Virus record (IMG/VR): IMGVR_UViG_3300030406_006868
Coordinates: 1 to 21,237 of that record
Length of the DNA: 21,237 nt
Source: a virus
Reading direction: 5' to 3' (one strand)
Shown here: in pieces, positions 333-19,832 of the stretch
How the letters are laid out: every line of letters begins with the position of its first letter
Numbering within the stretch: the stretch's first letter is position 1
Program-made: the position numbers and the translations under genes
Notes under the pieces: generated by a model
The model's database searches: none
The model's input: the letters and a program-made list of their open reading frames with translations, nothing else
What the model was told of the DNA's origin: nothing

Positions 333-348
333 TATTTTTCCTATTATT
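321..348. repeat. Repeated translation-start block, copy 1
   Basis: These 28 bases, covering the SD and first codons of the 95-aa gene, match 980-1007 (SD and first codons of the 214-aa gene) at 25 of 28 positions when compared by eye. Both encode M-x-E-N after the same spacing. Confidence 0.5.
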
Positions 349-991
349 ATGCTCCTTTGTAATCAGGCTCAAACTCAAAAAATTCATTTTTTAATTTTTC
401 AATAGCTTTAATTCTTTTGTCGTAACAGGAATTGCATTGTATATATGCATAGTTTTTTTTCTGTATTTCATTATTAAACGATTCAATAAGATAGCTTAGT
501 TCATGAATGTGATGTGGCATCCTGAAGCATTTGTTGTTTATTTCTGCTGAAAAAGATCTATGAATAACAAAAAAATCATCTTTGGTAACAGTTAAATATA
601 TCATTTTGAAATAATTATTATAATTTGGAGTTGTAAAAGTGATTGTGATAATACCCTTTACATTTTTTTTCTTCATATGATCATGTATCTTAGGAGTTAA
701 ATTTTCTATGCAGTTATCTGTGCCGGCATATTTGTTATTTTTTCCATATCGCCATTTGATATTTTTATCAAACAAAGACTTGGGCAGTTGTGGTCCTCGA
801 TATGTTTCTACTATATACAAATGATTCTCATGCCGATTATACCTACCTTTCCCATGAAATTCTAAAACATCATTTAATTGGTCTATACATCTTTTGATAT
901 ATTTAAGTATATTTTTTTTTATATGAATTTTAGAGCCGAAGTGCTCATAGTATTTTCTTCTTAATTCAGATTGATTTTCATTTTCGTACAT
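347..991 (-). CDS. Hypothetical protein (214 aa)
   Basis: Not a family I recognise. The 214-aa product is basic and soluble. Visible features are a basic helical N-terminus (residues 10-40), a central beta-rich part (VKGIITITFT then MIYLTVTKDDFFVIH, about 111-144), a His cluster PHHIHE (159-164) and a CNSC pair (186-189) in a helical C-terminus. The His and Cys residues could bind a metal, but there is only one CxxC, so this is speculative. The ATG at 991 has AGGA 8 bases upstream. It lies 11 nt downstream of the 83-aa membrane protein gene in the leftward operon. The spatial separation from packaging genes suggests a host-takeover or regulatory role rather than a virion part; that is inference. 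Confidence 0.75.
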   Translation of the reverse strand: MYENENQSELRRKYYEHFGSKIHIKKNILKYIKRCIDQLNDVLEFHGKGRYNRHENHLYIVETYRGPQLPKSLFDKNIKWRYGKNNKYAGTDNCIENLTPKIHDHMKKKNVKGIITITFTTPNYNNYFKMIYLTVTKDDFFVIHRSFSAEINNKCFRMPHHIHELSYLIESFNNEIQKKNYAYIQCNSCYDKRIKAIEKLKNEFFEFEPDYKGA

Positions 992-1007
992 AATTTATCC
1001 TATTATT
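980..1007. repeat. Repeated translation-start block, copy 2
   Basis: Second copy of the 28-base block found at 321-348, here covering the SD and start of the 214-aa gene; 25 of 28 bases agree. Confidence 0.5.
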
Positions 1008-1254
1008 TTATTTTTTTAGTCGCTTTTCTATATAGTGATGATAAAGACTCTTTTTTCTTTAGCTTTCTTTCTACAAACATTTTAAACAAAAATATAACTA
1101 CAAATAAAATCAAAAGAAATAAACAATAAATTGCGATAAATTTTAAAAATAAAACAATTAGAGAAATAGCGCCTCCTTTACTTAAAACATCAACCCCTGT
1201 GAGTGCTTTATAAAAAAAAGCGATTCCTAGTAAACAAAAAAACAGTTTAATCAT
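1003..1254 (-). CDS. Small membrane protein, two hydrophobic segments (83 aa)
   Basis: The 83-aa product has two hydrophobic segments: about residues 2-19 (IKLFFCLLGIAFF) and a long one at about 29-58 rich in I, L, F and V, followed by a strongly basic tail (ERKLKKKES to the end, KKIK). This predicts an inner-membrane hairpin with the positive tail in the cytoplasm. The ATG at 1254 has only a weak purine-rich SD (AAAGAG). It follows the 19-aa reading frame at 1332-1273 by 18 nt. The shape is compatible with a holin or a superinfection-exclusion protein, but nothing in the sequence decides between them. Confidence 0.7.
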   Translation of the reverse strand: MIKLFFCLLGIAFFYKALTGVDVLSKGGAISLIVLFLKFIAIYCLFLLILFVVIFLFKMFVERKLKKKESLSSLYRKATKKIK

Positions 1255-1355: not shown

Positions 1356-1372
1356 TGTATAAACTATAGTAT
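1356..1372 (-). promoter_or_regulatory. Control motif A (ACTATAGT family), leftward
   Basis: Read on the minus strand this is ATACTATAGTTTATACA, built on the palindrome ACTATAGT (1363-1370). It lies 24 nt upstream of the first leftward cistron, where a -10 element and transcription start are expected. It matches the motif at 8281-8296 except for two transitions. Confidence 0.5.
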
Positions 1373-1410
1373 ATATAATTTGTATTGTAATATTGATTTG
1401 TTCTGTTATG

Positions 1411-1425
1411 TCCTAATGATTAGGA
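1411..1425. promoter_or_regulatory. 15-bp perfect palindrome, candidate operator
   Basis: TCCTAATGATTAGGA is a perfect 7-1-7 inverted repeat in the middle of the divergent control region, between motif A (leftward) and the rightward promoter at 1489-1517. Its position suits a dimeric regulator acting on both directions. No regulator can be assigned to it. Confidence 0.35.
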
Positions 1426-1457
1426 ATTAAGTTTAATTTATAGGTTTATTTTATGTT

Positions 1458-1502
1458 ATTTAAAGAAAAACTTTAAATTATTTTTTTATTTACTTTAAAT
1501 TA
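1458..1502. repeat. AT-rich hairpin and direct repeats in the divergent region
   Basis: ATTTAAAG (1458-1465) and CTTTAAAT (1471-1478) form a perfect 8-bp inverted repeat around AAAAA, followed by a T-rich run (1479-1491). ACTTTAAATTA occurs at 1470-1480 and again at 1492-1502, spaced by 22 bases (about two helical turns). This could be a weak rightward terminator, a protein-binding array, or low-complexity AT sequence. Confidence 0.3.
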
Positions 1503-1526
1503 AATGTTTACTATAATATATATAGT
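1489..1526 (+). promoter_or_regulatory. Rightward promoter with control motif E
   Basis: TTTACT (1489-1494), a 17-nt spacer and TATAAT (1512-1517) form a sigma70-like promoter facing the 44-aa gene at 1551. ACTATAATATATATAGT (1510-1526) overlaps the -10 and is an inverted repeat (ACTATA-5 nt-TATAGT), related to the ACTATAGT motifs elsewhere. The strong SD TAGGAGGG follows at 1534-1541. Confidence 0.55.
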
Positions 1527-1550
1527 TATCGAGTAGGAGGGACACACATT

Positions 1551-1685
1551 ATGCCTTGGAAAGCTAAGAAAACTAAATCTGGAGCAGTTGTAAAAGATAA
1601 GAATAATAAGACTGTTAGCACACACACTAGTATGAAAAAAGCTAAAAGCTCAGTCAAAGCAAGGTACGCAAACTATAAAAAATGA
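1551..1685 (+). CDS. Small basic protein (44 aa)
   Basis: ATG at 1551 with a strong SD (GGAGGG, 1536-1541) opens a 44-codon frame starting MPWKAKKTKSGAVV and ending in KARYANYKK; its TGA overlaps the ATG of the next gene (ATGA). About a third of the residues are Lys or Arg, so it probably binds nucleic acid or is simply very basic. The C-terminal part (THTSMKKAKSSVKARYANYK) resembles short basic proteins near packaging genes of marine phages, by memory rather than search. It is the first cistron after the rightward promoter, so it should be well expressed. Confidence 0.7.
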   Translation: MPWKAKKTKSGAVVKDKNNKTVSTHTSMKKAKSSVKARYANYKK

Positions 1686-2122
1686 CAGAACAAGAAACTG
1701 AGTTTGATAAACAGCAAAAGCATATCGATTTAGTGGAAAAAGCATACACACAAGAATTTAAACTAGGGCACTTTACACCAACATACACAGATTTAAAAAA
1801 AAGAACTGGTTTGAGTATAAAAGAAATCAAAGAGGTTCAGTCAAAATATAACTTTAATCCAAAGCAATCTAATTTAAGGTTTTTTGTACCAGCTGTGTTA
1901 AATACAGCTTTGGATATGATATTTGATGAGGATCTGCGTAGTAGCGCAAGAATAAAGGCCATAGAAACTTATTTAAAGGTTTTTAACTCAGATCCAGAGC
2001 TTATGACTGGAAACGATTTTAATATTAAGGTTATAACACAAGACTTTAAAGAAATCGAAAAACATGTAGAGATTAGACACGCTGAAGTAAAAGCGTTACA
2101 GGAAGAAGATATTCATGGATAA
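1682..2122 (+). CDS. terS: Putative terminase small subunit (146 aa)
   Basis: Small terminases recognise phage DNA and present it to TerL. This 146-aa protein has the expected build: a helical start (1-30), a helix-turn-helix-like segment (about 31-54, with TPTYTDLKKRTGLSIKEIK), a central helical oligomerisation-like part (70-105, with AVLNTALDMIF and RIKAIETYLKVF) and a C-terminal stretch NDFNIKVITQDF, followed by an acidic helix. The ATG overlaps the preceding stop and it overlaps the following gene by 8 nt, indicating tight coupling. TerL lies about 1.8 kb downstream rather than next door, which weakens the call. The coiled-coil/HTH protein after TerL (5298-5780) is the alternative candidate. 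Confidence 0.5.
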   Translation: MTEQETEFDKQQKHIDLVEKAYTQEFKLGHFTPTYTDLKKRTGLSIKEIKEVQSKYNFNPKQSNLRFFVPAVLNTALDMIFDEDLRSSARIKAIETYLKVFNSDPELMTGNDFNIKVITQDFKEIEKHVEIRHAEVKALQEEDIHG

Positions 2123-2387
2123 ATATAAAAGAGGACAAGAACAGTTTAAGGGTTATAACAAACCTAAAAGAACGCCAGGGCATGCTACTAAATCACATGC
2201 TGTACTAGCTAAAGAAGGGGATAAGATAAAGCTTATTCGTTTTGGTCAACAAGGAGTTAGCGGTGCAGGTAGCGCAACGGATGCTAAGTCTATGGCAAGA
2301 CGTAAAAGTTTCAAAGCTAGACATGCTGAAAATATAAAAAAAGGAAAGATGTCTGCTGCCTATTGGGCTAATAAGGTTAAATGGTAA
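2115..2387 (+). CDS. Small basic phage protein with conserved C-terminus (90 aa)
   Basis: A 90-aa basic protein (many Lys and Arg). The segment KLIRFGQQGVSGAG (39-52) and the C-terminus RRKSFKARHAENIKKGKMS followed by AAYWANKVKW match, from memory, a compact domain of unknown function that recurs in phage genomes, often with the same final tryptophan-containing motif. Its role is not known to me; nucleic-acid binding is plausible from charge. It overlaps the end of the upstream putative TerS gene by 8 nt and is followed by overlapping or closely spaced small genes, so it belongs to the same operon. SD is AGGAAG at 2100-2105. Confidence 0.75.
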   Translation: MDKYKRGQEQFKGYNKPKRTPGHATKSHAVLAKEGDKIKLIRFGQQGVSGAGSATDAKSMARRKSFKARHAENIKKGKMSAAYWANKVKW

Positions 2388-2650
2388 CAATGAGTAAAAA
2401 TAAAATAGAAAAAATATATAAAAAAAAGAAAATGATAATAACCCATTATGGAGAAGACATAGAGTTAAATGAAGAAGACATAAAATATGAAATTTATGAT
2501 CATTTTATGAAAAGGATTGTAATTACTGAAAGAGAGTTAGTGTATCAGCAGCAAATTTTAGAAAATTGGAAACAGATCACATGGGTATCAATATGTGTAA
2601 TATTATCCGTAATATTTGCATTTACGGTTATATTATTACTAGGTAAATAG
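2381..2650 (+). CDS. C-terminally anchored membrane protein (89 aa)
   Basis: The N-terminal two-thirds is charged and helical (KNKIEKIYKKKKM then acidic GEDIELNEED), and residues 67-88 form one strong hydrophobic segment (ITWVSICVILSVIFAF onward) ending GK. That predicts a protein anchored by its C-terminus with the charged part in the cytoplasm. Two starts are possible: ATG 2381 (AAGG only 4 nt upstream, overlapping the previous gene) or ATG 2390, giving MSKNKIEK. A single C-terminal segment is unlike a classical two-segment holin. It is the first member of a run of small membrane or helical proteins. Confidence 0.65.
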   Translation: MVTMSKNKIEKIYKKKKMIITHYGEDIELNEEDIKYEIYDHFMKRIVITERELVYQQQILENWKQITWVSICVILSVIFAFTVILLLGK

Positions 2651-2658
2651 GAGAAAAA

Positions 2659-2922
2659 ATGTTTAATACAATTGTTGAGAGAATAATACAAACAATCGCT
2701 AAAAGAGTTGAAAGAAAAATTAATAAGCGTTTAATAGCAGAGTTAGATGAATTTGCTCTAATAAGCAAAGCTGCTAAACATAGATTACACAGAGAGTTAG
2801 ATGGATTTGCAGGCATCATAGCCAACTCTAATACACAAATAGAAGCTTATCTTAAACCAAGATTAACTAGAATAGAACAAAGGTTACAGGCCTTAGATAA
2901 AAAGATATTAAAAGATGAGTGA
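2659..2922 (+). CDS. Small helical protein (87 aa), unknown function
   Basis: The 87-aa product looks almost entirely helical and basic, with repeated R/K-E-L/I patterns (KRVERKINKRLIAELDEF, then RLTRIEQRLQALDKKILKDE) that suggest amphipathic helices or a short coiled coil at 65-87. There is no convincing membrane segment. A good SD (AGGAG, 2650-2654) lies 4 nt before the ATG at 2659, and the stop overlaps the next microprotein gene by 8 nt. I do not recognise the family; a small scaffold or adaptor protein is possible from shape alone. Confidence 0.65.
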   Translation: MFNTIVERIIQTIAKRVERKINKRLIAELDEFALISKAAKHRLHRELDGFAGIIANSNTQIEAYLKPRLTRIEQRLQALDKKILKDE

Positions 2923-2995
2923 AGTATCTGGCGTTGTATTTTTATACATTGGATTATTATTAAGTTTAAGCTTTATTTTTATAGACTTAGAATAA
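2915..2995 (+). CDS. Membrane microprotein (26 aa)
   Basis: ATG at 2915, overlapping the end of the previous gene by 8 nt, opens 26 codons beginning MSEVSGVVFLYIGLLLSLSF and ending FIDLE, then TAA. One hydrophobic segment (about 6-23) lies between an acidic start and an acidic end. The SD is weak (AAAAG), so expression would rely on coupling to the upstream gene. It sits among other small membrane proteins, which supports it as real, but the short length makes chance possible. Confidence 0.4.
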   Translation: MSEVSGVVFLYIGLLLSLSFIFIDLE

Positions 2996-3011
2996 AAAGG
3001 ATAAAGGAATT

Positions 3012-3176
3012 ATGTCATACATTTTAGTCGTATTTTTATCAATTGTATGGATATTAGGTTTTGGATATTTAGCGTCACATGTAGATTTTATAAAACAAAA
3101 CAAGGCTTTCATACTTCTGATTATCCAGATGTTAATATTATTAATTTCAATTTATTATTTAAAATTTAAACATTAA
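3012..3176 (+). CDS. Two-segment membrane protein (54 aa), holin-like
   Basis: An ATG at 3012 with SD AAAGGAA (3003-3009) opens a 54-codon frame beginning MSYILVVFLSIVWILGFGYL. Two hydrophobic segments (about 4-22 and 33-50) are joined by a short polar loop containing HVDFIKQNK, and the protein ends KFKH. Small size and a two-helix hairpin are the shape of small phage holins, which form membrane lesions to time lysis. No endolysin gene is in this window, so the holin call is an inference from shape and neighbours only. It lies 16 nt after the 26-aa frame. Confidence 0.55.
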   Translation: MSYILVVFLSIVWILGFGYLASHVDFIKQNKAFILLIIQMLILLISIYYLKFKH

Positions 3177-3191
3177 AAGGAGGAAAAAATC

Positions 3192-3266
3192 ATGTTAGAA
3201 ATTATAGATTTTTTAGCACAAAACCCTGAAGTTGTAGGGTTGATTTGCATTTTAGTGCTCGTATAG
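3192..3266 (+). CDS. Membrane microprotein (24 aa)
   Basis: A very strong SD (AAGGAGG, 3177-3183) stands 8 nt before ATG 3192, which opens 24 codons: MLEIIDFLAQNPEVVGLI, then CILVLV and TAG. The C-terminal third is hydrophobic. The SD is among the best in the window, which argues for translation despite the tiny size. It is the last cistron before the second control region. Confidence 0.5.
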   Translation: MLEIIDFLAQNPEVVGLICILVLV

Positions 3267-3277
3267 ATAGAATGTAA

Positions 3278-3292
3278 ACAATAGTATATTGT
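3278..3292 (+). promoter_or_regulatory. Control motif B-prime
   Basis: ACAATAGTATATTGT is a perfect inverted repeat (ACAATA-GTA-TATTGT). Its first eight bases match the motif in front of the portal (ACAATAGTTTATATT, minus strand 8244-8230). It lies upstream of the winged-helix-like gene at 3348 and overlaps the -35 element of the promoter at 3289-3317. Confidence 0.4.
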
Positions 3293-3338
3293 AATTAACT
3301 TTAATTTGTATCATAATATAAACTATAGTGTACAAATT
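3289..3338 (+). promoter_or_regulatory. Rightward promoter with control motif B
   Basis: TTGTAA (3289-3294), a 17-nt spacer and CATAAT (3312-3317) form a sigma70-like promoter for the operon starting at 3348. CATAATATAAACTATAGT (3312-3329) matches 8228-8245 at 17 of 18 bases. The motif is enclosed by an inverted repeat, AATTTGTA (3303-3310) and TACAAATT (3331-3338), which looks like an operator over the start site. Confidence 0.5.
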
Positions 3339-3347
3339 AGGGGTATT

Positions 3348-3737
3348 ATGAGATTTACTAGTTTTATTGAAAAAAGAGCAGCTATGCGCTCTGAATTTTA
3401 TTATATAAGGTTCATGGAGTTTTTGTTTGACGAATTTTATTACGTTATTAAATGTAAAAAAAACCATTTTAAAGGGCACGCAATATTAAATCTTGAGGAC
3501 TTATATAATAAAAAAGACACGTATTATCAAAGACTAAGAACAATGACTTTAAACAGGTGCGTTTACATAATTACAGATTTAGTGAACAAGGGGCTTTTAG
3601 AGGTTCAACACTTACAGCAACATAACTTAAACGTAAAAAATGTGTGTTATAAGATATTGAATTTAGAAAATTACATTAAAGAAATTAACATAAAAAAAAA
3701 CAATCATTCAAAAATGAGGAGAATAAAAGTTGGATAA
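3348..3737 (+). CDS. Putative winged-helix DNA-binding protein (129 aa)
   Basis: ATG 3348 is chosen because AGGGG precedes it at 5 nt; an upstream TTG in frame at 3306 lies inside the promoter. The basic 129-aa protein has aromatic-rich helices at the start (EFYYIRFMEFLFDEFYY, 16-32) and a segment YYQRLRTMTLNRCVYIITDL (59-78) followed by VNKGLLEVQ, the usual pattern of a recognition helix leading into a wing (80-105). The basic tail ends KKNNHSKMRRIKVG. A transcription regulator of the phage, possibly acting on the ACTATAGT motifs, is attractive since it is the first gene after a control region; that link is inference. Confidence 0.5.
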   Translation: MRFTSFIEKRAAMRSEFYYIRFMEFLFDEFYYVIKCKKNHFKGHAILNLEDLYNKKDTYYQRLRTMTLNRCVYIITDLVNKGLLEVQHLQQHNLNVKNVCYKILNLENYIKEINIKKNNHSKMRRIKVG

Positions 3738-3930
3738 AATCACTTGGATATACATCGGACAGTTTGCAACAGTTTTAATTATATTAGCCCTTTTTCTTCT
3801 TTTTTATAAAAGATTAGATTACTTAACTAAAAGCAATATGGATCCAGTACATGTCTTAAATAGACCTAAAACGTTAATAGAAAAAATGGAAATTAGAAGA
3901 CAAGCTGAAGAAGATAGAAGGTACGTTTAA
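3730..3930 (+). CDS. N-terminally anchored small membrane protein (66 aa)
   Basis: Start is TTG at 3730 with AGGAG 8 nt upstream; it overlaps the previous gene by 8 nt. One hydrophobic segment at about 5-26 (TWIYIGQFATVLIILALFLL) is followed by a charged, helical tail rich in Arg and Glu (EKMEIRRQAEEDRRYV). This shape is seen in inner-membrane spanins, but the tail is short and there is no partner lipoprotein gene in view, so I leave it unassigned. It directly precedes TerL. Confidence 0.6.
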   Translation: MDKITWIYIGQFATVLIILALFLLFYKRLDYLTKSNMDPVHVLNRPKTLIEKMEIRRQAEEDRRYV

Positions 3931-3949
3931 AAAATTATAGAGGGGACAC

Positions 3950-5290
3950 TTGAGTTTTTTTAAATTAAAAAATGGGGTCTGGGAATGTAACGTTACTTTA
4001 AACCCATTTCAATCAGCCGCAGAAAAAGATTTTTGGGATAATGGCCAAATCTCAAAAGATAAGATAATGCAATACTTGTTAGTTGGTGGCTTTGCTAACG
4101 GTAAATCATTTTGGACTACCTTCACTACGCATCGCATGTGTTTAAAATATCCAGGAACACAGTGGTTGTTTATTAAAAATGTTAGTAAAGATTTAGAGAC
4201 AACAGCTATTACACAAATGATAAAGGATTTTGGAGTAACGAATACCTTTAAATATAATAAAAAAGACAAAACATTTACTTATAAAAACGGATCTAAAATA
4301 CAGTTTACAGGACTAGATAATAATAACGTTAGTGGATTGTTATCTTCACAATGGGATGGTTTTACTTTTAACCAAATTGAAGAAATTGATGAAGAGGTTT
4401 ACTTGCACGTTTTTGGTCGACGAAGAGGAAATAGAGACCGCAAAATTGTTTTGTTAATGGAGGGGAACCCAGCGCCAGGATGGGTAAAAAAAAGATTTAT
4501 CGATGAACCTGTAGACGAATATACAAAGCTTTATTCTAGTTCGACACATGTAAATGCACATAACTTACCTGATGATTACATAGCAGGGATGGTGAGAGTT
4601 TTTGGGCAAGAAAAAATTGATCGCTATATGATGGGTTCATGGGAGTCAAATGACATTAAAGTATTTCATCAGTTTAAAGAGTTTGAAAATGTTATTCCAT
4701 CACACGAAATAGATTCAGATTCCCTTATTTATGTAGGTTTTGACCATGGGGTTGTTCATGCCTCAGCTTTTATTTGGATAGCACTGAACAAGAAAGGAGA
4801 AATACATGTTTTTGATGAATTCTATGAAAAAAAAGCAAGCACATTACAGTTAAGAGCTGCAGCTACGCGATGGGGTAAATACCCTATTGTGGCAGATTAC
4901 GCAATAAAAAGAGTTGAACGTGACGGCAGATGCTTATGGGACGACTTAGTTCAAGATGGTTTACGGTTACAGGAATCTAACAAGGATAAGCTTGGAAATA
5001 TCAGAATTATTAACGATGGTTTTTTAAATAAAAAACTATTTATTCATGATAACTGTACTAATTTAATTCGTGAAATAAATAATTATCAATGGAAGCTAAA
5101 TAGTGCAGGGGCTGTAAACAAAACGTATGAAACACCAGTAAAAAAAGATGATGACGCATTAGATGCGTTTATGTACGTTTATCGCGAAATGGTTGACCGT
5201 AATCCACCTGAACAAAATGAAGCGCAGAAGCGTTTAGCTGAAAAGTTTAATCTAATGCGTAACTCAAGTATGAAAAGAAGATATTGTTAG
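3950..5290 (+). CDS. terL: Terminase large subunit (446 aa)
   Basis: TerL is the packaging motor: an ATPase that pumps DNA through the portal and a nuclease that cuts concatemers. Visible motifs are a Walker A-like GGFANGKS (46-53), a Walker B region GFTFNQIEEID (136-146) with the catalytic glutamate, the coupling motif EGNP (171-174), and RNase H-like nuclease aspartates in YVGFDHG (D265), HVFDEFY (D289) and DDALDAF (401-407). At 446 aa the length is typical for a compact TerL. The start is TTG at 3950 with AGGGG 4 nt upstream; no upstream ATG fits. It follows the 66-aa membrane protein gene and is 7 nt before the coiled-coil/HTH gene. Confidence 0.95.
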   Translation: MSFFKLKNGVWECNVTLNPFQSAAEKDFWDNGQISKDKIMQYLLVGGFANGKSFWTTFTTHRMCLKYPGTQWLFIKNVSKDLETTAITQMIKDFGVTNTFKYNKKDKTFTYKNGSKIQFTGLDNNNVSGLLSSQWDGFTFNQIEEIDEEVYLHVFGRRRGNRDRKIVLLMEGNPAPGWVKKRFIDEPVDEYTKLYSSSTHVNAHNLPDDYIAGMVRVFGQEKIDRYMMGSWESNDIKVFHQFKEFENVIPSHEIDSDSLIYVGFDHGVVHASAFIWIALNKKGEIHVFDEFYEKKASTLQLRAAATRWGKYPIVADYAIKRVERDGRCLWDDLVQDGLRLQESNKDKLGNIRIINDGFLNKKLFIHDNCTNLIREINNYQWKLNSAGAVNKTYETPVKKDDDALDAFMYVYREMVDRNPPEQNEAQKRLAEKFNLMRNSSMKRRYC

Positions 5291-5297
5291 GAGAATT

Positions 5298-5780
5298 ATG
5301 AATATTGAAGAAATTTTAAAAAAAGTAGATCAAAAAATAAATGTTTTAAGAAATGAAATGACATTAAATTTTAGAGATTTACAAAATCAAAATAGTACAA
5401 TGGCCCAAAATACAAAACTTGTAGAGATGGGAATGGCTATGGATAAACTGCAATCACAGGTAGCTTTTTGCGAAAACCAAACATTACCTAAATTAGAGCA
5501 GGTAGAAAAACGAATAGAAACTGCAGAAACTAAAATAACCACGATAAGTGAAGAAGCTTTACCGTTAGTTCTTAAAAGCACAGTGAAAACAGTAAACGAC
5601 GGTGAATTAAAAGAATTGTACATACAGTGCGATGGATTAACTTACGATTTGCTTGGATCTAAATTAAATATGGGTGCGAGCACAGTCAGTCAGTACATTA
5701 ACGATAACCGTAAAAGCCAAGAAGGTAGAAGAGCTATATACAACTTTTTAACGGAGCACTTAAAAAATGCCAATGTATAG
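5298..5780 (+). CDS. Coiled-coil protein with C-terminal HTH (160 aa)
   Basis: Residues about 4-85 look like a long coiled coil (NIEEILKKVDQKINVLRNE, later LPKLEQVEKRIETAETKI). The C-terminal part (114-137, LTYDLLGSKLNMGASTVSQY) reads as a helix-turn-helix of the sigma/TrfB-like type, followed by a helix RRAIYNFLTEHL. A coiled-coil oligomer carrying DNA-binding heads placed directly after TerL would suit a DNA-recognition subunit, so this is an alternative small terminase candidate. It could also be a transcription regulator. The ATG has AGGAG 5 nt upstream, and the gene overlaps the zinc-ribbon gene by 14 nt. Confidence 0.6.
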   Translation: MNIEEILKKVDQKINVLRNEMTLNFRDLQNQNSTMAQNTKLVEMGMAMDKLQSQVAFCENQTLPKLEQVEKRIETAETKITTISEEALPLVLKSTVKTVNDGELKELYIQCDGLTYDLLGSKLNMGASTVSQYINDNRKSQEGRRAIYNFLTEHLKNANV

Positions 5781-6147
5781 CTTTAAATGTAATGATTGTG
5801 ACAGCATACATACATATCATATGAATGTAGATACTTATGATAATGACCTAAGGCGAGTCAATTGCATGAGTTGTACTTCAACAAATATGGTAAGGTTTTT
5901 TGGAAATCAAAAAACAGTTTATTTTAGTGGCATGTTTAATGAAATAACGATAGGCGGTCAAACATTTACTACTGCTGCACAAAAAAAAGCGTTTGAAAAA
6001 GAAAACAACTATATTCCTCTTTCGTATGAAGAAAATCAGCAAGAGACAACTAAAAATCGAAAAAGAATAGAGAAACAACAACAAGAACAAATGAAATCAG
6101 ATGTAGCTGAGATATGTAAAAAAGCATTTCACAAAAATGGGCTTTAA
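5767..6147 (+). CDS. FmdB-like zinc-ribbon protein (126 aa)
   Basis: The N-terminus MPMYSFKCNDCDSIHTY with CNDC (8-11) and CMSC (33-36) is the pattern of FmdB-type zinc ribbons (MPxYxYxC-x2-C and a second CxxC about 20 residues on). The rest is charged and helical, with EENQQETTKNRKRIEKQQQE forming a likely coiled coil at about 85-107. Such ribbons occur in phages next to terminase genes; their role there is not settled in my knowledge. The gene overlaps the upstream gene by 14 nt and its TAA overlaps the stop of the inverted portal gene by 4 bp. Confidence 0.75.
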   Translation: MPMYSFKCNDCDSIHTYHMNVDTYDNDLRRVNCMSCTSTNMVRFFGNQKTVYFSGMFNEITIGGQTFTTAAQKKAFEKENNYIPLSYEENQQETTKNRKRIEKQQQEQMKSDVAEICKKAFHKNGL

Positions 6148-8168
6148 ATAGGGTTCTCCTGAAACTGAAAAGGGGTAGTGACATCAGTTCCAGGAGATTG
6201 AAAAACTTGCGGCGGAGTATAGCCGAATAAAGATAAAAGTTGTAGAGTCGCATCATTTTTTACAGACTCATCAGTAATATTATTAATAGTTTTTAGTAGA
6301 TCATCAGGTTTTATATCTGCCTTCTGTAATTTTGCTAAAAGCATGTTAGCTGGATCTCTCATTTCTTCTTGTACTGCTAATTGATTTTGTTCTTGAGCCT
6401 GTCTCATTTTATCAATAACAGCTCTATAATTAGGATACTCTAGCTTATCTAAAACAAATTCTTTAATATCAATATCAACAGGATTAAAAAAGCCTTCTTG
6501 TGCAAACTTTACAGTTAACTGTGCAAGCTGTGTACGGTTTAAGGGCATTTCACTACCAGCAATTATTTTAGTCTCAAACTCACCTGATGATAAATCTGTT
6601 TTAATATCGACAGCGATTTCCATGACATTATTTTGATTCATAACGCTTTTTCTAATTTGACTTAAGTTTTCCTGAGCAGCATTCTCCATAAACAATGGAT
6701 CTATCTCAATAAAATCACCTGTAGATAATCGAATTATTCTCTGTGATTTATAATACAACTGTATCAACGTTATAATTTTATCTGAGAGCCTAATATTTAA
6801 AGACACAAGCTCTCTTTGCATCTCTCTTATTGCTGTCATAGGGCTTTCTATTAAATCTTCGACCATACGTCCAGAATTAACCCCTACTGGTCTTTCACCA
6901 GATATCATCATTTTATTTACTCTAGCAATATTGTACATATCTTGTTCAAGCAACTGTGCCCTTTGTTCTAAAAGAGGCAAATATTGTAAGTTGTTGTTTG
7001 TGTAATTTATAGGGACCTCGCCTTCACGAATTGATCTATGAGGAACTTCAATAATAGGTTCAGGTCTACATAATGATTCCTTATCTATTTCAGAACCAGC
7101 AGGAATAAGCGTCGCATTTATCCTTGATCCTATCATTCCAGAAATTTCTTTATTAATAGCATCTAATCGTTCTTGTGGATATGTCAAATATTCGACTAAA
7201 GAACAAGGAAAAAAACCATCTGTGTCATAATTACCTTTTTGTATATCAAAAGGAAAACCAAATGGGTAATCAATAGCCTTATCTTCTAAAATACATTTAT
7301 CTGTGTAAGTAATAACACGTCCATTAGGGTACATAAATTGCTGCATTTTTAATTCATCACTATCATCACCCTGAGGATCAATAAAAATTGTATCGTCTTT
7401 AAGATAACATTCATAAATTGTTATGTTGTTTGTAGATTTTTTATATTGATCATCATAATTGTTAGGCATATAAGCCTGAGCAGAGGTGGTATCATTTTTT
7501 ACACTAATAATATTGTCTGTACGCTCGGCATCTAAATTAGATTTATAACTATTATCTTTGTTGCCAGGTGTTAAAGTTTTAATTTTTTCTAAAATCTCAG
7601 GATTGTTTTTATATTTATTTACTAAATCAAATACACTCTGTTCACTTTTAACAAAAATATAATTTGCATTATTAATATCTGTAGCACTTGGATCTGGATA
7701 AAAATTACAAGGATCAATTTGATGATATTTAACCTCGCCTAGTTCGTTTGCTGAATCTTGATTCCAATAAACTTTTGAAATACCAACACCATAGATGAGC
7801 ATTGATAAAACGATATTTCTTTGAAACTCTTTATCGTAATTATTATCAACGACATCTTGTAAACAATCATTTAAAACAGCTGCTTTATCATTAAGTAGCT
7901 GTAAGTTTTCAAAATCACTAAAAGACATTGATCGCAGTACAACTTCTTTTGTTAGTTGCTGATCTAATGTAAATGTTGCCACAGTATCAACAATTGATTT
8001 AAGAATGTTAGAGGTTGAATTAACACTATATTTACTTGTATTTGATTTTTGTGTTTTTAAAGTTCCATTTTTATAGACAGAGTACCGTTTTTTTAACGAC
8101 TCAGTAGGATGAGCGTCAATAGCCTTAGATTTAAGTTTGTTTAGATATTTAATTAACTGAGGTTCCAC
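6144..8168 (-). CDS. Portal protein, P22-like, on the opposite strand (674 aa)
   Basis: The portal forms the dodecameric ring at one capsid vertex through which DNA enters and leaves. The 674-aa length is in the range of P22-type podovirus portals. IDPCNFYPDPSA (151-162) is a conserved portal segment; nearby LSMLIYGVGISKVYWNQD (121-138) and IREMQRELVSLNIRLSDKII in the stem/crown region fit the family. The C-terminus is Gln/Pro-rich. The start is GTG at 8168; a TAA lies two codons upstream in frame, so no longer start exists, and no SD is visible in the preceding 60 nt. It is inverted relative to terminase and capsid genes and has its own control motif at 8228-8247. Confidence 0.9.
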   Translation of the reverse strand: MEPQLIKYLNKLKSKAIDAHPTESLKKRYSVYKNGTLKTQKSNTSKYSVNSTSNILKSIVDTVATFTLDQQLTKEVVLRSMSFSDFENLQLLNDKAAVLNDCLQDVVDNNYDKEFQRNIVLSMLIYGVGISKVYWNQDSANELGEVKYHQIDPCNFYPDPSATDINNANYIFVKSEQSVFDLVNKYKNNPEILEKIKTLTPGNKDNSYKSNLDAERTDNIISVKNDTTSAQAYMPNNYDDQYKKSTNNITIYECYLKDDTIFIDPQGDDSDELKMQQFMYPNGRVITYTDKCILEDKAIDYPFGFPFDIQKGNYDTDGFFPCSLVEYLTYPQERLDAINKEISGMIGSRINATLIPAGSEIDKESLCRPEPIIEVPHRSIREGEVPINYTNNNLQYLPLLEQRAQLLEQDMYNIARVNKMMISGERPVGVNSGRMVEDLIESPMTAIREMQRELVSLNIRLSDKIITLIQLYYKSQRIIRLSTGDFIEIDPLFMENAAQENLSQIRKSVMNQNNVMEIAVDIKTDLSSGEFETKIIAGSEMPLNRTQLAQLTVKFAQEGFFNPVDIDIKEFVLDKLEYPNYRAVIDKMRQAQEQNQLAVQEEMRDPANMLLAKLQKADIKPDDLLKTINNITDESVKNDATLQLLSLFGYTPPQVFQSPGTDVTTPFQFQENPI

Positions 8169-8203
8169 ATATTAAAAATACAATAATAATAAAACTGCAT
8201 ACA

Positions 8204-8247
8204 TTAACAATAATTTATAAAAGTTGCCATAATATAAACTATTGTAA
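8204..8247. promoter_or_regulatory. Control motif C between portal and virion operon
   Basis: CATAATATAAACTATTGT (8228-8245) matches 3312-3329 at 17 of 18 bases. Read on the minus strand, ACAATAGTTTATATTATGG lies about 60 nt upstream of the portal start, in the orientation shared by motifs A and D relative to their genes. On the plus strand TTAACA (8204-8209), 18 nt and CATAAT (8228-8233) also form a sigma70-like promoter, so transcription in either direction is possible. Confidence 0.5.
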
Positions 8248-8258
8248 ATATTTGTTAG

Positions 8259-8296
8259 TTTAAAAAAGGTAATTTTACTAATACTATAGTTTGTAT
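8259..8296 (+). promoter_or_regulatory. Control motif D, promoter for the virion operon
   Basis: ATACTATAGTTTGTAT (8281-8296) is the plus-strand equivalent of motif A (two transitions). TTTAAA (8259-8264), a 17-nt spacer and TACTAT (8282-8287) fit a sigma70-like promoter. A start about 7 nt after the -10 would fall at or next to the ATG at 8295, giving a leaderless or nearly leaderless transcript. Confidence 0.45.
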
Positions 8297-8693
8297 GGAG
8301 CTATTAGGAAAAAAACTTACATTAAAAAAAACATTTGAAGATATTTGCGAAGTCTTAACTTACACACCGTCTCAAAGTGTTCATAAATTAGGACAATATC
8401 AAATCAATATTCCTGGTGTAGGTCCATTGATTTTAAACGAAAAAGTAATTCGTCTTTTGTTTGATGTGATCGAGCAAAAAAAACCTCAAGAAATTAAAGA
8501 AGAAAAAAAACCAGTAAAGCCTAATTTAGAACAGGCAAGAAATGACCTTATGTCTTTAAAGAAAGACGATTTATTGAAGGTTGTTTCAGACATGAAGCTA
8601 GAAGATGACATTGCTAGCTCCTTAAAAAAAGCCCTTTTAGTAGAAGAAATTCTTAAAGAGAAATTTGGAGAGGATTACAAAGCTAAAGGGTAA
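8295..8693 (+). CDS. Hypothetical protein with SAP/HeH-like C-terminus (132 aa)
   Basis: Function not recognised. The N-terminal half (1-60) mixes helices and a beta-like segment (YQINIPGVGPLILNEKVI); a Lys/Pro/Glu-rich linker (63-77) leads to a helical C-terminal part, DLMSLKKDDLLKVVSDMKLE then LKKALLVEEILKEKFGEDY, which has the helix-extended-helix look of SAP or HeH domains that bind nucleic acid or chromatin-like partners. Position before the scaffold suggests a head-assembly role. The ATG has no SD and lies 6 nt after ACTATAGT, so it may be translated from a leaderless transcript. Confidence 0.65.
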   Translation: MELLGKKLTLKKTFEDICEVLTYTPSQSVHKLGQYQINIPGVGPLILNEKVIRLLFDVIEQKKPQEIKEEKKPVKPNLEQARNDLMSLKKDDLLKVVSDMKLEDDIASSLKKALLVEEILKEKFGEDYKAKG

Positions 8694-9563: not shown

Positions 9564-10571
9564 ATGGCAATTTTAGATGATATTGGAGCAGCTTTATACG
9601 AGTATGTTCCTGGCAAAATTTATGAGCAAACATATAAAAGAAATAGTGCTTTAAAATTTTTAATTGGTGACAACAAAGAGTTGATGCCTCACGGTAATGA
9701 TTTTGGGTTTATCTGTCAGTTAGGAGAAGTACCAACAGTTGAATATATTTCAGGAGATGGTACAGACACCTTTAGTAACAACACTTCAAATACATTGTTA
9801 AGAGCAACATTACCTTATAAAAATATGGTAGCAAACACTGTCTTAACACTTGAAGACTTTGTTAAGTTTGGTGGCGACAAAACTCAAATTGTTTCATTAG
9901 CACAAGCGAAGGCTGCTCAAACAGTTAACAGTCAAGTAGTCAAACTATCAAGAGACTTGTATCTATCAGGTACTGGCGCAAATGCTAAAAGGTTTAATGG
10001 TTTAGAAGATATATTTGCTGGTAATGGTGTTGCTTATGCAGGTATTACTCCTGTTGCTGGTACTAACACAGAAGATTGGTTAGCTACTACAGATAATGCT
10101 GTAAACACTATTAACTTTGCCGAATTACAGAAAATGATTGCAAATGTTCGTGATAATGCAGGTTTTTATGCAAATGGAGAAGAAACCGGAACTGCATTAA
10201 TTACACCAGATATGATTTTGTCTAACGGCAATGTTCAAAGTCAGTTTGCATCAACACAACAAGGTCAACAAGTCTATAACGATGAAGCCAACTTGAATGC
10301 AGGGTTTGGAACTATCTTTGTAAACAGAATTCCTTGGTATACAGACAGTTATTGTCCAGGTGACGCAGGTGTTGCGAACAACCATTGTTATATCTTATCT
10401 AAAAACTCTATCAGATTTGGATATGTGTATGGTTTTGACAGACCTAGTCCATTATCAGGATCTAACGTTATGCCTAATCAGCCAGTTCAAAATAACGTTA
10501 ACTTCATGTCTGGTAACTACTTTTGTGTCAAAAGAAACGCAAACGCACGTTTCACAGCGATTAACGCTTAA
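9564..10571 (+). CDS. Major capsid protein (335 aa)
   Basis: The 335-aa product has the composition and pattern of a HK97-fold shell protein of the P22/N4-type group: N-terminal helix (LDDIGAALYEYVPGKIYEQT), a strand-rich body including GNDFGFICQLGEVPTVEYIS, a spine-like helical stretch around AQAKAAQTVNSQVVKLSRDL (about 113-132), and a C-terminal strand region with SGNYFCVKRNANARF. It carries few charged clusters and follows the scaffold gene by 22 nt with SD AAGGAAG. Neighbouring scaffold and decoration-like genes fix the role more strongly than any single motif. Codon use is richer in GCT/GGT than flanking genes, as expected for a highly expressed protein. Confidence 0.85.
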   Translation: MAILDDIGAALYEYVPGKIYEQTYKRNSALKFLIGDNKELMPHGNDFGFICQLGEVPTVEYISGDGTDTFSNNTSNTLLRATLPYKNMVANTVLTLEDFVKFGGDKTQIVSLAQAKAAQTVNSQVVKLSRDLYLSGTGANAKRFNGLEDIFAGNGVAYAGITPVAGTNTEDWLATTDNAVNTINFAELQKMIANVRDNAGFYANGEETGTALITPDMILSNGNVQSQFASTQQGQQVYNDEANLNAGFGTIFVNRIPWYTDSYCPGDAGVANNHCYILSKNSIRFGYVYGFDRPSPLSGSNVMPNQPVQNNVNFMSGNYFCVKRNANARFTAINA

Positions 10572-11106: not shown

Positions 11107-11123
11107 AATGGATAAACAAAAAA

Positions 11124-11630
11124 ATGACAAATTCAGCAAATTTAAGATATACGTATGATAAAAACGATTTTTTGTCGCCCCATACAAAACAAGAATTCCC
11201 TTTAGGGTTTTTAGCTACAGTCGAATCAGATGATGGAGTGTATCAAAATATTTATCTATATGTTAAATCAGGAGAAACAACTTTATATTCTTATCGACCA
11301 CATCAAAGAGAAGCTGGATTTGAATTGATACCAATTAGAGATGACACAAATTATATTCCAATTTTTGTACCTCAGTTTGATATACCACCAAATACATTTG
11401 CATTTGTTTTGTTAAAAGGCAAAGGAAAAGCAAATGTTAGATCTGGCCCAGCAGGTGTTGTAAATGGAACTTATTTTACTCCAAGAATTGGTATTCCAGA
11501 ATTTTTTTATGGAACAAATACAAATATGGGTGAATCTGTTTATGGTTCAGCTTTAGAACCAATGAACGATGGAGAAACAAAAGTCATAGAAGTGCACATG
11601 ATGGGTAGACTAGAGAGGTTATACGGATAA
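11124..11630 (+). CDS. Decoration-like protein, array 1 copy 2 (168 aa)
   Basis: Second tandem paralogue: KQEFPLGF at 22-29, NIYLYVKSG, and VPQFDIPPNTFAFVLLKGKG (about 88-107), matching VIPQFDMKAGQFGFVVYKGE of copy 3. I choose ATG 11124 because it places PLG at residue 26, as in the other copies (24-27). A TTG at 11094 in the same frame would add 10 residues and sits inside the hairpin with AGGAGG only 2 nt upstream; the true start is uncertain. The stop at 11628-11630 overlaps the next start (TAATG). Confidence 0.6.
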   Translation: MTNSANLRYTYDKNDFLSPHTKQEFPLGFLATVESDDGVYQNIYLYVKSGETTLYSYRPHQREAGFELIPIRDDTNYIPIFVPQFDIPPNTFAFVLLKGKGKANVRSGPAGVVNGTYFTPRIGIPEFFYGTNTNMGESVYGSALEPMNDGETKVIEVHMMGRLERLYG

Positions 11631-12145
11631 TGAAAACAAGTTTAAGACTGTCGTTAAAATCTCATTTACTTAATAATGCGCATGATAAACAAGAGCTACC
11701 TTTAGGTTATCAGCCAAATTTAGAAGATTATTCTACTATATACGATGCAGAATATATATATATACAAGCGGGTGAAGATATAACCGCTTTTCAACCATAT
11801 GGCGTTTTCGGACAAGAAAAAATATTTTCAATTGATGAATATGTAACCACAACAATGAGAATTGCTAGACTAGTTATACCTCAATTTGATATGAAGGCAG
11901 GTCAGTTTGGTTTTGTGGTATACAAAGGAGAATGTATAGCCAATGTAGGAGCAGCAGCTGATGGAAATGTTTTTGACTATCTAGCAGCGAGACAAACTGT
12001 TACTGACAGGCTTTTTTTTCAATCATCACAACCAGATTTAGTTTTAGATGGCACGTTTGCATTTACATTAGAACCTCTTGTTGGAGGACAAATAGCAAAT
12101 AAAAAAATATGTTTACTAGGTAAAGACGGGAGGTTAGGACAATGA
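11630..12145 (+). CDS. Decoration-like protein, array 1 copy 3 (171 aa)
   Basis: Third tandem paralogue. DKQELPLGYQ (19-28), EYIYIQAGED (38-47) and LVIPQFDMKAGQFGFVVYKG (about 82-101) align with copies 2 and 4, and the C-terminus has the KICLLGKDG strand. The 35 bases encoding QFDMKAGQFGFV are identical to those in copy 4, although flanking sequence is diverged. Start ATG 11630 overlaps the previous stop and the gene overlaps the next by 4 nt, so copies 2-4 are translationally coupled. Beta-rich composition with no membrane segment is consistent with a surface protein of the head or neck. Confidence 0.6.
   Translation: MKTSLRLSLKSHLLNNAHDKQELPLGYQPNLEDYSTIYDAEYIYIQAGEDITAFQPYGVFGQEKIFSIDEYVTTTMRIARLVIPQFDMKAGQFGFVVYKGECIANVGAAADGNVFDYLAARQTVTDRLFFQSSQPDLVLDGTFAFTLEPLVGGQIANKKICLLGKDGRLGQ
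11882..11916 (+). repeat. 35-nt identical block, copy in gene 11630
   Basis: Thirty-five bases beginning CAATTTGATATGAAGG are identical to 12394-12428. They encode QFDMKAGQFGFV in the same frame of two tandem paralogues 512 bases apart. Confidence 0.85.
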
Positions 12146-12651
12146 CAATTGCAAGTAAGCATCTTCTATCAGTCCCTGATGATGTTTTTGTGAGAGCATT
12201 TGATAAACAAATATATAGTTTAGGAACATTAATATTAAATAAAAATACTAATTCGATTTATGCGCAACATTTAATTTTTTGCAGTGCAACATTTGATGTA
12301 GTCAAACATCAACCATATTTTATAGGTAAAAACAGTGAATTAATACAATATAGCAGCAGCTATCAACCAGAAGGACAAGTTGTAGTATGTCCACAATTTG
12401 ATATGAAGGCAGGTCAGTTTGGTTTTGTTATATATCAAGGTGAAGGACTATTTAAATTAGAAGATACCGTAGCATTTGCTAAAAATAGCTATATACGTGC
12501 AGAGGGTGATATACCTGATGCATTTGGAAAAAAATATGGAGATACGATAAATCAAGTTGTATGTGGTTTTTTAACAGAAGATCAAGAAACTGGTCAGAAT
12601 CCAGTTAAATGTTGTTTGTTTGGACAAGAGATAAGTATACCGCCAACTTAA
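12142..12651 (+). CDS. Decoration-like protein, array 1 copy 4 (169 aa)
   Basis: Fourth tandem paralogue. DKQIYSLGTL (21-30, Ser in place of Pro), VVVCPQFDMKAGQFGFVIYQ (about 81-100) and a C-terminal KCCLFGQE strand match copy 3. It has more Cys than the others. The ATG overlaps the previous stop (ATGA), with GGGAGG/TTAGGA purine tracts upstream. It closes the first array; 14 nt further on, after a fresh AGGAGA SD, the second, unrelated-looking array begins. Role as for the other copies: probable head or neck surface component, not proven. Confidence 0.6.
   Translation: MTIASKHLLSVPDDVFVRAFDKQIYSLGTLILNKNTNSIYAQHLIFCSATFDVVKHQPYFIGKNSELIQYSSSYQPEGQVVVCPQFDMKAGQFGFVIYQGEGLFKLEDTVAFAKNSYIRAEGDIPDAFGKKYGDTINQVVCGFLTEDQETGQNPVKCCLFGQEISIPPT
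12394..12428 (+). repeat. 35-nt identical block, copy in gene 12142
   Basis: Second copy of the block at 11882-11916, identical over 35 bases, ending GGTTTTGT. Confidence 0.85.
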
Positions 12652-12665
12652 TTTAGGAGATGTAA

Positions 12666-13363: not shown

Positions 13364-13737
13364 TGGAAGTAAACGCTGGATCTTATTATATAAAAAAAGC
13401 AAATAACCCTGTAGAAGCTCGTGTAGACAATGCGAAGCTACCACTATTTGGTGATGAAATAATATTGCAACCGTCACAAACCATACAGCTAGATTTAGAT
13501 CAAATGAAAGCTAACGCACAAGATGGTATCAGTGTAGGTGAGATCAAATGTAGATCGGTTGGAGATATTGTTATAAATGTTAATTGCAGATTAGATAATT
13601 CAGTAAATTCACCTGATATAAGAATTAATTATGAGGAAACCTTTGATTTAGGAATGTTCAATGGTCGTATTAGAGATATAACAATTCGAAACTTAAATGC
13701 AAATTATACAACTATTGTGACAATATTGGGGATGTGA
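13363..13737 (+). CDS. Small beta-rich protein, array 2 copy 3 (124 aa)
   Basis: The clearest member with copy 4: VGEIKCRSVGDIVINVNCRL and EETFDLGMFNGRIRDITIRN (about 90-109) parallel GEIKNISNTGGFVILKFNL and NEIFDLGQFQGKIYEISIEN of the next gene; both end in M. The N-terminal strand region includes GDEIILQPSQTIQLDLDQMK. The start is TAATG-coupled to the preceding gene. I take it as a structural beta-sandwich-like protein, from pattern only. Confidence 0.6.
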   Translation: MEVNAGSYYIKKANNPVEARVDNAKLPLFGDEIILQPSQTIQLDLDQMKANAQDGISVGEIKCRSVGDIVINVNCRLDNSVNSPDIRINYEETFDLGMFNGRIRDITIRNLNANYTTIVTILGM

Positions 13738-13741
13738 ATAA

Positions 13742-14155
13742 ATGATAAGTACTAATTTATATGAAAAAAAACGACGCGATAATATAGCTGAAGAAAGAAT
13801 AAAAAACGGTAAAAAGGCTATGATGTTTGCATCGTTTTTTTTGTTTACATCGGCATCTGGATTGAATCCCAGTTCAGTTTTAATAAATTATAAAGACGGA
13901 GGGGTTGGTGAAGCAACATTAATAAATCAAAATGATGGGTTTGCAACAGGTGAAATTAAAAATATTAGTAATACAGGTGGCTTTGTAATTTTGAAATTTA
14001 ACCTTAAACAGAGTGGCAATATTACTACACAAGATGAAATTAAATTGTTAGATAATGAAATTTTTGATCTTGGCCAGTTCCAAGGAAAAATTTATGAAAT
14101 AAGTATAGAAAATACATCAACACAACCCGTGTTAATCAATGTTGATGCTATGTAA
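13742..14155 (+). CDS. Small beta-rich protein, array 2 copy 4 (137 aa)
   Basis: Its C-terminal half (71-137) matches copy 3 in pattern: GEIKNISNTGGFVILKFNL, then NEIFDLGQFQGKIYEISIEN and INVDAM. The N-terminus is unlike other copies: a very basic stretch (YEKKRRDNIAEERIKNGKK, 7-25) followed by a short hydrophobic patch MMFASFFLFTSASG (27-40). That patch is too short for certain membrane insertion and may be a buried strand or an anchoring helix. ATG 13742 follows the previous stop by 4 nt; an in-frame ATG at 13820 is an alternative start. Confidence 0.6.
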   Translation: MISTNLYEKKRRDNIAEERIKNGKKAMMFASFFLFTSASGLNPSSVLINYKDGGVGEATLINQNDGFATGEIKNISNTGGFVILKFNLKQSGNITTQDEIKLLDNEIFDLGQFQGKIYEISIENTSTQPVLINVDAM

Positions 14156-18634: not shown

Positions 18635-19830
18635 TGCTAAGACCATCATTTGTTAACGAAGAAGATAAAAATCTTGTAAATGCAATGAGATCTATGCAAG
18701 GCATGCGACCACAAAGTGAAACACAACGTATGCTAAATCAAAGAATTGCCCAACAATTAATGCAAACATATACACCACCAGAGCAAGTCACTTTAGAGAA
18801 TCTAGGACAAGGATTTGAAGAAGGCTTTATACCAGGTGTTGTAGATAGTGCTGCACAAATAGGTAATTATCTTATTAATAACCCACAAGGTAAACAAATA
18901 TCAGCAGCTTTGTTAGCTGATTCAAGCCCAGTTTTAGCACAAGGTTTATATCAAAGTGGATTACAAGATGCCCGTAACTTTTCGCAAGCACAAAATCAAG
19001 CACAAGCTCTTAATCAACAACAAACACAATTAGCAATGCAGTATTTAAAAAATTTAAGAGATACAGAACAAGCAAATTTAGCAGCAGGGTTACAAGAACA
19101 AAAATCCGAAAATAATAGGGCTTTAAAAGGTTTAGAACTGCAAACCACAACGCCAAAAGATCAAAACCAAGAAGAATTAAAACAAGATAAAAAAATACCA
19201 GAGTATTACTATAAAACCATAAACGAAGGTGGTATTGAAAAAACATATTTAGACTCAAAAACATATAAAGAAGACTTGGAAAGTGCAAGGAAAGATTTAG
19301 GTAGAATTAAATCAACCCGTGAAACTAATAAACGTGTTTTAAATTCTATTGATTCGTTAATTAAAGAAGTAAAGGATGAAAATGGGGAAGTTAAATATGC
19401 AATGACAGAATTAGGAGAGGCTGTTGTTGCTAATAATGCCTTAGAGGGTGCAGCAGAATCATTTGGACGATTTGTAGGAACTCCACGTCAAAAAAATGCA
19501 TATTCACATATTGAGCGTATAAAAGCAAATTTAGGTTTTGGAGAGCTGCAAAATATGAGAAATAACTCTCCAACTGGTGGAGCTTTGGGAACTGTTTCAG
19601 ACGCAGAAACGAATTTCTTGCAAAAATCAGCGTCTGCCTTAGATGCAGGAAAATCTTCAGAAGAAATGATTAGGGATCTATTAGAAATAAAACAAAGTAT
19701 ATTAAGGTTAGAATCGGATTTACCTAATACGCAAGAGGAAATACTTTATAGAAATGTTGGTGAACAAATGCCTAGTAAAAAAAATGAAAGTAATATAATG
19801 GATGGATATATAGTAAAGGTGAAAAATTAA
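18634..19830 (+). CDS. Ejection/internal virion protein, gp16-like (398 aa)
   Basis: A 398-aa helical protein. A Gln/Ala-rich region (about 108-150, with QALNQQQTQLAMQYLKNLRD) suggests coiled-coil assembly. Around residues 300-350, MRNNSPTGGALGTVSDAETN followed by a helix with LLEIKQSILRLESDL is a segment I know from phage DNA-transfer/internal virion proteins, where a T/P-G-G-A-L-G turn precedes a VSDxE helix. It is TAATG-coupled to the previous gene and 2 nt from the next. These proteins are packed in the head and injected to form a channel across the envelope; here that role is inferred. Confidence 0.65.
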   Translation: MLRPSFVNEEDKNLVNAMRSMQGMRPQSETQRMLNQRIAQQLMQTYTPPEQVTLENLGQGFEEGFIPGVVDSAAQIGNYLINNPQGKQISAALLADSSPVLAQGLYQSGLQDARNFSQAQNQAQALNQQQTQLAMQYLKNLRDTEQANLAAGLQEQKSENNRALKGLELQTTTPKDQNQEELKQDKKIPEYYYKTINEGGIEKTYLDSKTYKEDLESARKDLGRIKSTRETNKRVLNSIDSLIKEVKDENGEVKYAMTELGEAVVANNALEGAAESFGRFVGTPRQKNAYSHIERIKANLGFGELQNMRNNSPTGGALGTVSDAETNFLQKSASALDAGKSSEEMIRDLLEIKQSILRLESDLPNTQEEILYRNVGEQMPSKKNESNIMDGYIVKVKN

Positions 19831-19832
19831 TA

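Follow-up and report, generated by a model that had tools for sequence, protein, structure and literature searches.

Which factor reads a motif family that occurs in the control regions of the virus record IMGVR_UViG_3300030406_006868 is the question raised by this locus. The window analyzed was the entire record (21,237 bases). The original prediction had offered two readers of the motif, a phage RNA polymerase and a regulator acting on sigma70 promoters; of these, the regulator was supported and the polymerase was disfavoured. The conserved unit was found to be an 18-bp dyad, TRTAnACTATAGTnTAYA (that is, TRTA-n-ACTATAGT-n-TAYA), and it is probably the operator of a phage-encoded dimeric repressor of the Cro/C1 type, containing a helix-turn-helix (HTH), in a temperate podovirus-like phage.

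The window was compared with one relative, IMGVR_UViG_3300030330_006113 (30,934 bases; coordinates are given on the reverse complement, in the orientation of the window), and the comparative base thus comprised two near-identical contigs. The relative was 95–98% identical across most of the window and reached further at both sides. A P22-type portal, a large terminase, and a podovirus-type major capsid protein (above the curated cut-off) were encoded in the window. The relative also encoded a large serine integrase, an HTH_3 regulator, a 182-amino-acid HTH_19 regulator, a DnaD-like replication protein, a Sak annealing protein, and a RecE-like exonuclease. The window record stops before the segment with the integrase and repressor-type genes. 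In its annotated gene make-up, the relative is temperate, because it carries the genes for the serine integrase, both HTH regulators, Sak, and the RecE-like exonuclease.

The dyad in the control regions of the window

Six motif copies had been placed in the three control regions of the window, and all six were present at those positions. Because the conserved unit is an 18-bp dyad, the strand assigned to each copy means little. Operator 1 (1358–1375, TATAAACTATAGTATATA) and operator 4 (3317–3334, TATAAACTATAGTGTACA) matched the consensus perfectly, and operators 2 (1505–1522, TGTTTACTATAATATATA), 3 (3273–3290, TGTAAACAATAGTATATT), and 5 (8233–8250, TATAAACTATTGTAAATA) matched it with two mismatches each; operator 6 (CTAATACTATAGTTTGTA) lay at 8278–8295. 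All are putative operators, and below they are also designated by the first base of the core (1363, 1510, 3278, 3322, 8238, and 8283). The outer halves of the consensus mirrored each other at four of five positions, and the core varied among the sites (ACAATAGT, ACTATTGT, and ACTATAAT). Two pairs were similarly spaced, with 44 bp between 3278 and 3322 and 45 bp between 8238 and 8283.

The exact core ACTATAGT occurred three times in the window compared with 0.5 expected, a count reached in two of 100 shuffles, so that the core alone is only mildly unusual. All three copies lay in gaps, in line with the original statement that the core was absent from genes, but that statement missed the variant ACTATTGT inside the end of a gene. 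The full consensus was more discriminating; six matches were obtained with at most three mismatches, and this number was reached in one of 100 shuffles. With a symmetric 20-bp matrix, the six sites scored 14.7–21.2 bits, and operator 2 scored 15.7 bits with a matrix from whose training it was left out. The next position in the window scored 9.8 bits (core at 8207) and lay in the gap 8169–8294 shared with two of the six sites. Equally good matches within genes had been named as grounds for abandoning the motif; the best in-gene position reached only 7.3 bits. The motif family as a whole is not a product of chance.

Recurrence and conservation in the relative

A matrix trained on the six window sites only was applied to 11.8 kb of the relative without a counterpart in the window, and the scores were compared with those from 300 simulations. 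The top seven matches, at 2181, 30716, 7982, 2048, 8220, 2643, and 3197 of the relative, scored 24.2, 16.4, 13.3, 13.0, 12.4, 12.1, and 11.0 bits, respectively, while the simulated best match averaged 10.2 bits. The first four ranked above all 300 simulations; the significance by simulation covers these four ranks. Simulations with intergenic composition gave the same outcome for the top two. Six of the seven preceded a gene start by 12–70 bp, and the remaining one (2048) fell within the 5' part of a regulator gene, in a genome of which 8.6% is intergenic according to a mechanical gene list.

Four of the seven (2048, 2181, 2643, and 3197) were grouped in the regulator/integrase segment. The strongest, at 2181, occupied a gap of roughly 100 bp that separates the HTH_3 gene from a divergent gene of 46 amino acids. 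The match at 2048 fell in the 5' end of the HTH_3 gene and would be in a promoter position if translation started at Met30. Of the two weak matches, that at 2643 preceded a gene of 74 amino acids, and that at 3197 lay between the 182-amino-acid HTH gene and the early operon. Copies beyond chance were thus found in many promoter regions, including the repressor/immunity region, as would be the case in a dispersed-operator immunity regulon. The dyads were also conserved: no substitutions were found between the window and the relative at 118 dyad positions, compared with 24 at 546 neighbouring positions (p = 0.013).

Other viral contigs were searched with ATATAAACTATAGTRTA, which yielded 53 stretches. 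Besides the relative, these held one or two core copies each, or three in two loci (L112 and L140), often inside apparent coding sequence, and by this test of viral contigs the motif is no widespread promoter class. In two other contigs (L115, 1725–1741; L123, 7205–7221), ATATAAACTATAGT filled the spacer between a perfect TTGACA and TATAAT, as an operator inside a promoter would.

Sigma70-like promoters at the dyads

Besides dyad symmetry and the clustering of sites at Cro/C1-type regulator genes in the relative, the regulator reading was supported by overlap with sigma70-like promoters. Promoter scores at the dyads were better than those obtained when the flanks were randomised with the dyad held fixed (combined p = 0.0012). 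The boxes and starts were assigned by E. coli rules, which may not be those of the host.

The predicted promoters placed the dyads in two registers. In the first, the dyad centre was near +1, as observed for 3278, 3322, 8238, and the 30716 site of the relative. At operator 3, TTGCAT-17-TAGAAT put the centre at about +1.5, and the same position was obtained for operator 4 from the plus-strand promoter at 3289–3317 (TTGTAA-17-CATAAT), before a gene of 129 amino acids and the large terminase, and for operator 5 from the plus-strand promoter at 8204–8233 (TTAACA-18-TGnCATAAT) of the rightward capsid unit. The 30716 site was preceded by TTGAAA-17-TATAGT. In the second register, the centre was near -10, as for 1363 and 8283 (both on the minus strand) and 1510; this register is partly built in, as the core contains TATAGT. 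Operator 1, upstream of the leftward unit, was overlapped by a minus-strand ATTACA-17-TATAGT and lay 30 bp before the leftward ATG, which has an AAAGGAG. Operator 2 contained the -10 of the plus-strand promoter at 1489–1517 (TTTACT-17-TATAAT), before the rightward unit starting at 1551. Operator 6, between the divergent portal and capsid units, coincided with a minus-strand promoter at 8311–8283 (TTTCCT-17-TATAGT) that would serve the portal unit.

Operator 6 also abuts the ATG at 8295 of a gene of 132 amino acids. This ATG is 4 bp after ACTATAGT (window 8283–8300), and RNA initiated from that -10 would have almost no leader.

The motif might be no more than a conserved -10 element for host sigma70 in the AT-rich genome of a phage, read by no dedicated regulator. 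The TATAGT of the core can act as a -10, and the exact cores in the relative were 4–30 bp ahead of start codons. This explanation is nevertheless improbable, as it does not account for the conserved A-C ahead of TATA, the dyad flanks, or two copies per region, and at four sites the likely -10 falls outside the core. Furthermore, a promoter scan alone revealed no excess of sigma70 sites (42 compared with 48.6 expected), while the dyad was far above chance.

A promoter of a T7-like RNA polymerase, with a CACTATAG-like core, is the least probable explanation and can be considered very remote. Resemblance of the core is all that speaks for it. The sites at 3278, 8238, and 1510 break ACTATAG, a T7 promoter is asymmetric and does not share the dyad symmetry, and instead of an asymmetric 20–23-bp element with CACTATAG constant through +6, the sites were dyadic with a variable core. 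Annotation of the window and of the 30.9-kb relative, two contigs that may fall short of complete genomes, revealed no phage-type RNA polymerase, and a PF00940 search of them was empty, although the control genomes likewise gave no match. Searches for sigma70 regions 2 and 4, whose controls were positive, gave no match to either domain. The gene set, with its integrase and repressor-type genes in the relative, is temperate.

Repression or activation

We propose repression rather than activation because the dyad centres lie near +1 or -10, where bound proteins normally repress. TRTAnACTATAGTnTAYA dyads would overlap the -10 hexamer or start point of host-sigma70 promoters, and a dimer bound there would be expected from its position to prevent initiation at many units simultaneously. 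Silencing would extend to the leftward unit at 1363, the unit on the terminase side, the portal and capsid units that diverge from each other, the immunity/integration region, and the final gene of the relative.

Alternatively, the dyads could be sites of a phage activator that turns on a class of late promoters, in the way that controller (C) proteins activate at low concentration, and the pairs at 44–45 bp may then combine an upstream activating site with a promoter-proximal repressing site. Most of the sites were located at promoters of structural genes, the replication operon was largely devoid of them, and the centre of operator 3 fell about 42 bp ahead of the start predicted for the 3322 promoter, a typical activator position. 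C proteins are known both to activate and to repress (PMC4824078). We consider activation unlikely, although less so than a plain -10: most sites are single and overlap the -10 or +1, which are not normal activator positions, several of the promoters have acceptable -35 boxes (TTGAAA and TTAACA), and sites are also present in the immunity segment.

Candidate regulators

The original prediction had proposed the product of 3348–3737 as the binder. This product matched none of the DNA-binding families, and the quality of its structure model was insufficient for use (predicted local distance difference test, pLDDT, of 54). A regulator adjoining the integrase, outside the window, appears to be a better candidate. 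The grouping of sites in the regulator/integrase segment suggests that the binder is a regulator encoded there. The HTH_3 gene (L007:12826-13137) adjoins the integrase in the relative and has two possible starts, giving products of 103 and 74 amino acids. We estimate an about even chance that the HTH_3 protein is the binder, and the 182-amino-acid HTH_19 protein is a possible but clearly weaker candidate. Under the proposed repressor model, the protein would be made with or near the integrase and would cover its own region as well as the late-unit promoters; the HTH_3 regulator, as the likeliest protein, would also regulate itself.

The best solved homologue of the HTH_3 protein was the controller protein C.AhdI (E value of 2e-4), with SinR and others close behind. 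A structure model from the single sequence was unusable (pLDDT of 50), and no palindrome was found directly upstream of the HTH_3 homologues (36–40% identity) in other prophages. We took the residues of the phage protein and C.Esp1396I, a relative of C.AhdI, to be equivalent on the basis of the C.AhdI alignment and the presumed alignment of C.Esp1396I with C.AhdI. With this assumption, the HTH_3 protein keeps the equivalents of Y37 and R46 and has Leu and Ala at the equivalents of R35 and T36. R46 of C.Esp1396I recognises the G of GTC and T36 recognises the C, while Y37 helps DNA bending (PMC4041747). The optimal box of C.Esp1396I is GAC-TATA-GTC, with an outer TG for controller proteins (PMC3758141). 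The phage motif keeps AC-TATA-GT, including this G, and its outer base is degenerate.

Several points weigh against a repressor operator read by the HTH_3 protein. The agreement of residues and motif with controller proteins was noticed post hoc and is suggestive only. The 182-amino-acid HTH_19 regulator occupies the place of a classical repressor, and it could bind the sites instead. The window record ends short of the regulator segment, and the regulator is visible in the relative only. In a strict permutation test of flank symmetry, the flanks alone were not significant (p = 0.078). Two of the operators are identical at 17 of 18 bases and may have arisen by duplication, and the registers are not fully independent. 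Finally, the sigma70 scores of the sites at 2181 and 2048 of the relative did not exceed the average.

Other features of the two phages

Two weaker positions in the window are candidate operators. One (8202–8219, core ACAATAAT at 8207) is the 9.8-bit position in the same divergent gap as operators 5 and 6. The other (13706–13723) has the core ACTATTGT at 13711–13718, which is ACTATAGT in the relative; it lies in the last codons of the preceding gene, with the ATG at 13742 following about 23 bp later, its dyad flanks fit poorly, it scores 7.4 bits in the relative, and it may be a chance match.

Searches of the collections with the portal, capsid, RecE, and a 602-amino-acid protein retrieved the same single relative and no third genome. 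Other terminase relatives did not exceed about 32% identity, which was confined to short stretches, and showed no motif enrichment. In the search for a host, a portal scan of GTDB gave no match, and a terminase profile scan gave distant matches only, mainly in Clostridia.

The portal gene (6144–8168) runs opposite to the terminase and capsid genes and has a GTG start without a clear ribosome-binding site, and the same was observed in the relative. Gene content was swapped or deleted between the phages at window 347–1245 (leftward small genes; relative 9761–9967) and at window 11109–12662 (about 1.5 kb of genes 3' of the capsid gene; relative 19799–19850). The 90-amino-acid protein at 2115–2387 (phrog_7595) had relatives of 69–77% identity in numerous unrelated phages of aquatic origin (Roseobacter, Synechococcus, Vibrio, and Manatee Spring contigs), while only a single close relative was found for the remainder of the genome. 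The end of the relative contig (L006:1-20) is a homopolymer run (C in window orientation) that is probably an assembly artefact, and the true right end is possibly elsewhere.

Comparison with known systems

Most well-studied temperate phages silence their late genes indirectly, through an antiterminator or activator made early. If the repressor reading is true, every late unit of this phage would be controlled directly through operators that are recognisable in the sequence and assignable to one of two small regulators. More tentatively, a small HTH protein resembling restriction controllers may have been recruited as the master regulator, acting directly on the terminase, portal, and capsid promoters, and C-box-like dyads would then silence the late genes directly and not via an antiterminator or late activator.

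The C1 repressor of phage P1 has 22 dispersed operators, which are asymmetric sites of 17 bp, ATTGCTCTAATAAATTT (PMC8546580). One repressor serving many operators across a temperate phage genome is a shared feature, but the present sites are 18-bp dyads and no sequence relation was shown. Cluster A mycobacteriophages (L5) have more than 20 operators/stoperators, which are asymmetric sites of 13 bp, bound by monomers in an orientation-dependent manner, some of which affect elongation (PMC9283540). These are likewise located in promoters and short intergenic spaces, whereas the present sites are near-palindromic and at promoters, and are not asymmetric oriented sites.

The C-boxes of C.Esp1396I and C.AhdI resemble the present sites in being dyads with a central TATA that are read by a small HTH dimer, as is predicted for the phage, and GAC-TATA-GTC contains ACTATAGT (PMC3758141, PMC4041747). 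The match is partial: AC-TATA-GT is present, the outer G/C is degenerate, and the TRTA outer half partly matches the outer TG. The dyads here are single and dispersed, while those in restriction-modification systems are tandem left and right operators (OL/OR), and the base-reading R35 and T36 are replaced by Leu and Ala in the HTH_3 protein. No restriction endonuclease or methyltransferase genes were recognised among the annotated neighbours in the relative.

The repressor of phiC31, a phage with a serine integrase, acts on conserved palindromic inverted-repeat operators scattered over the genome. Scattered palindromic sites, here putative operators, and a serine integrase, here seen in the relative, make for a likeness at the level of description. 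The analysis offers a predicted regulatory map for an unstudied phage group with one close relative in the searched collections. If correct, it would add a symmetric, C-box-like member to the few known dispersed-operator systems (P1 and L5) and would be a hint of exchange of controller-type HTH proteins between phages and restriction systems. By this comparison, the present sites would work like a dispersed-operator regulon, for which homology to any known one is not claimed and which appears distinct in its symmetric, C-box-like form.

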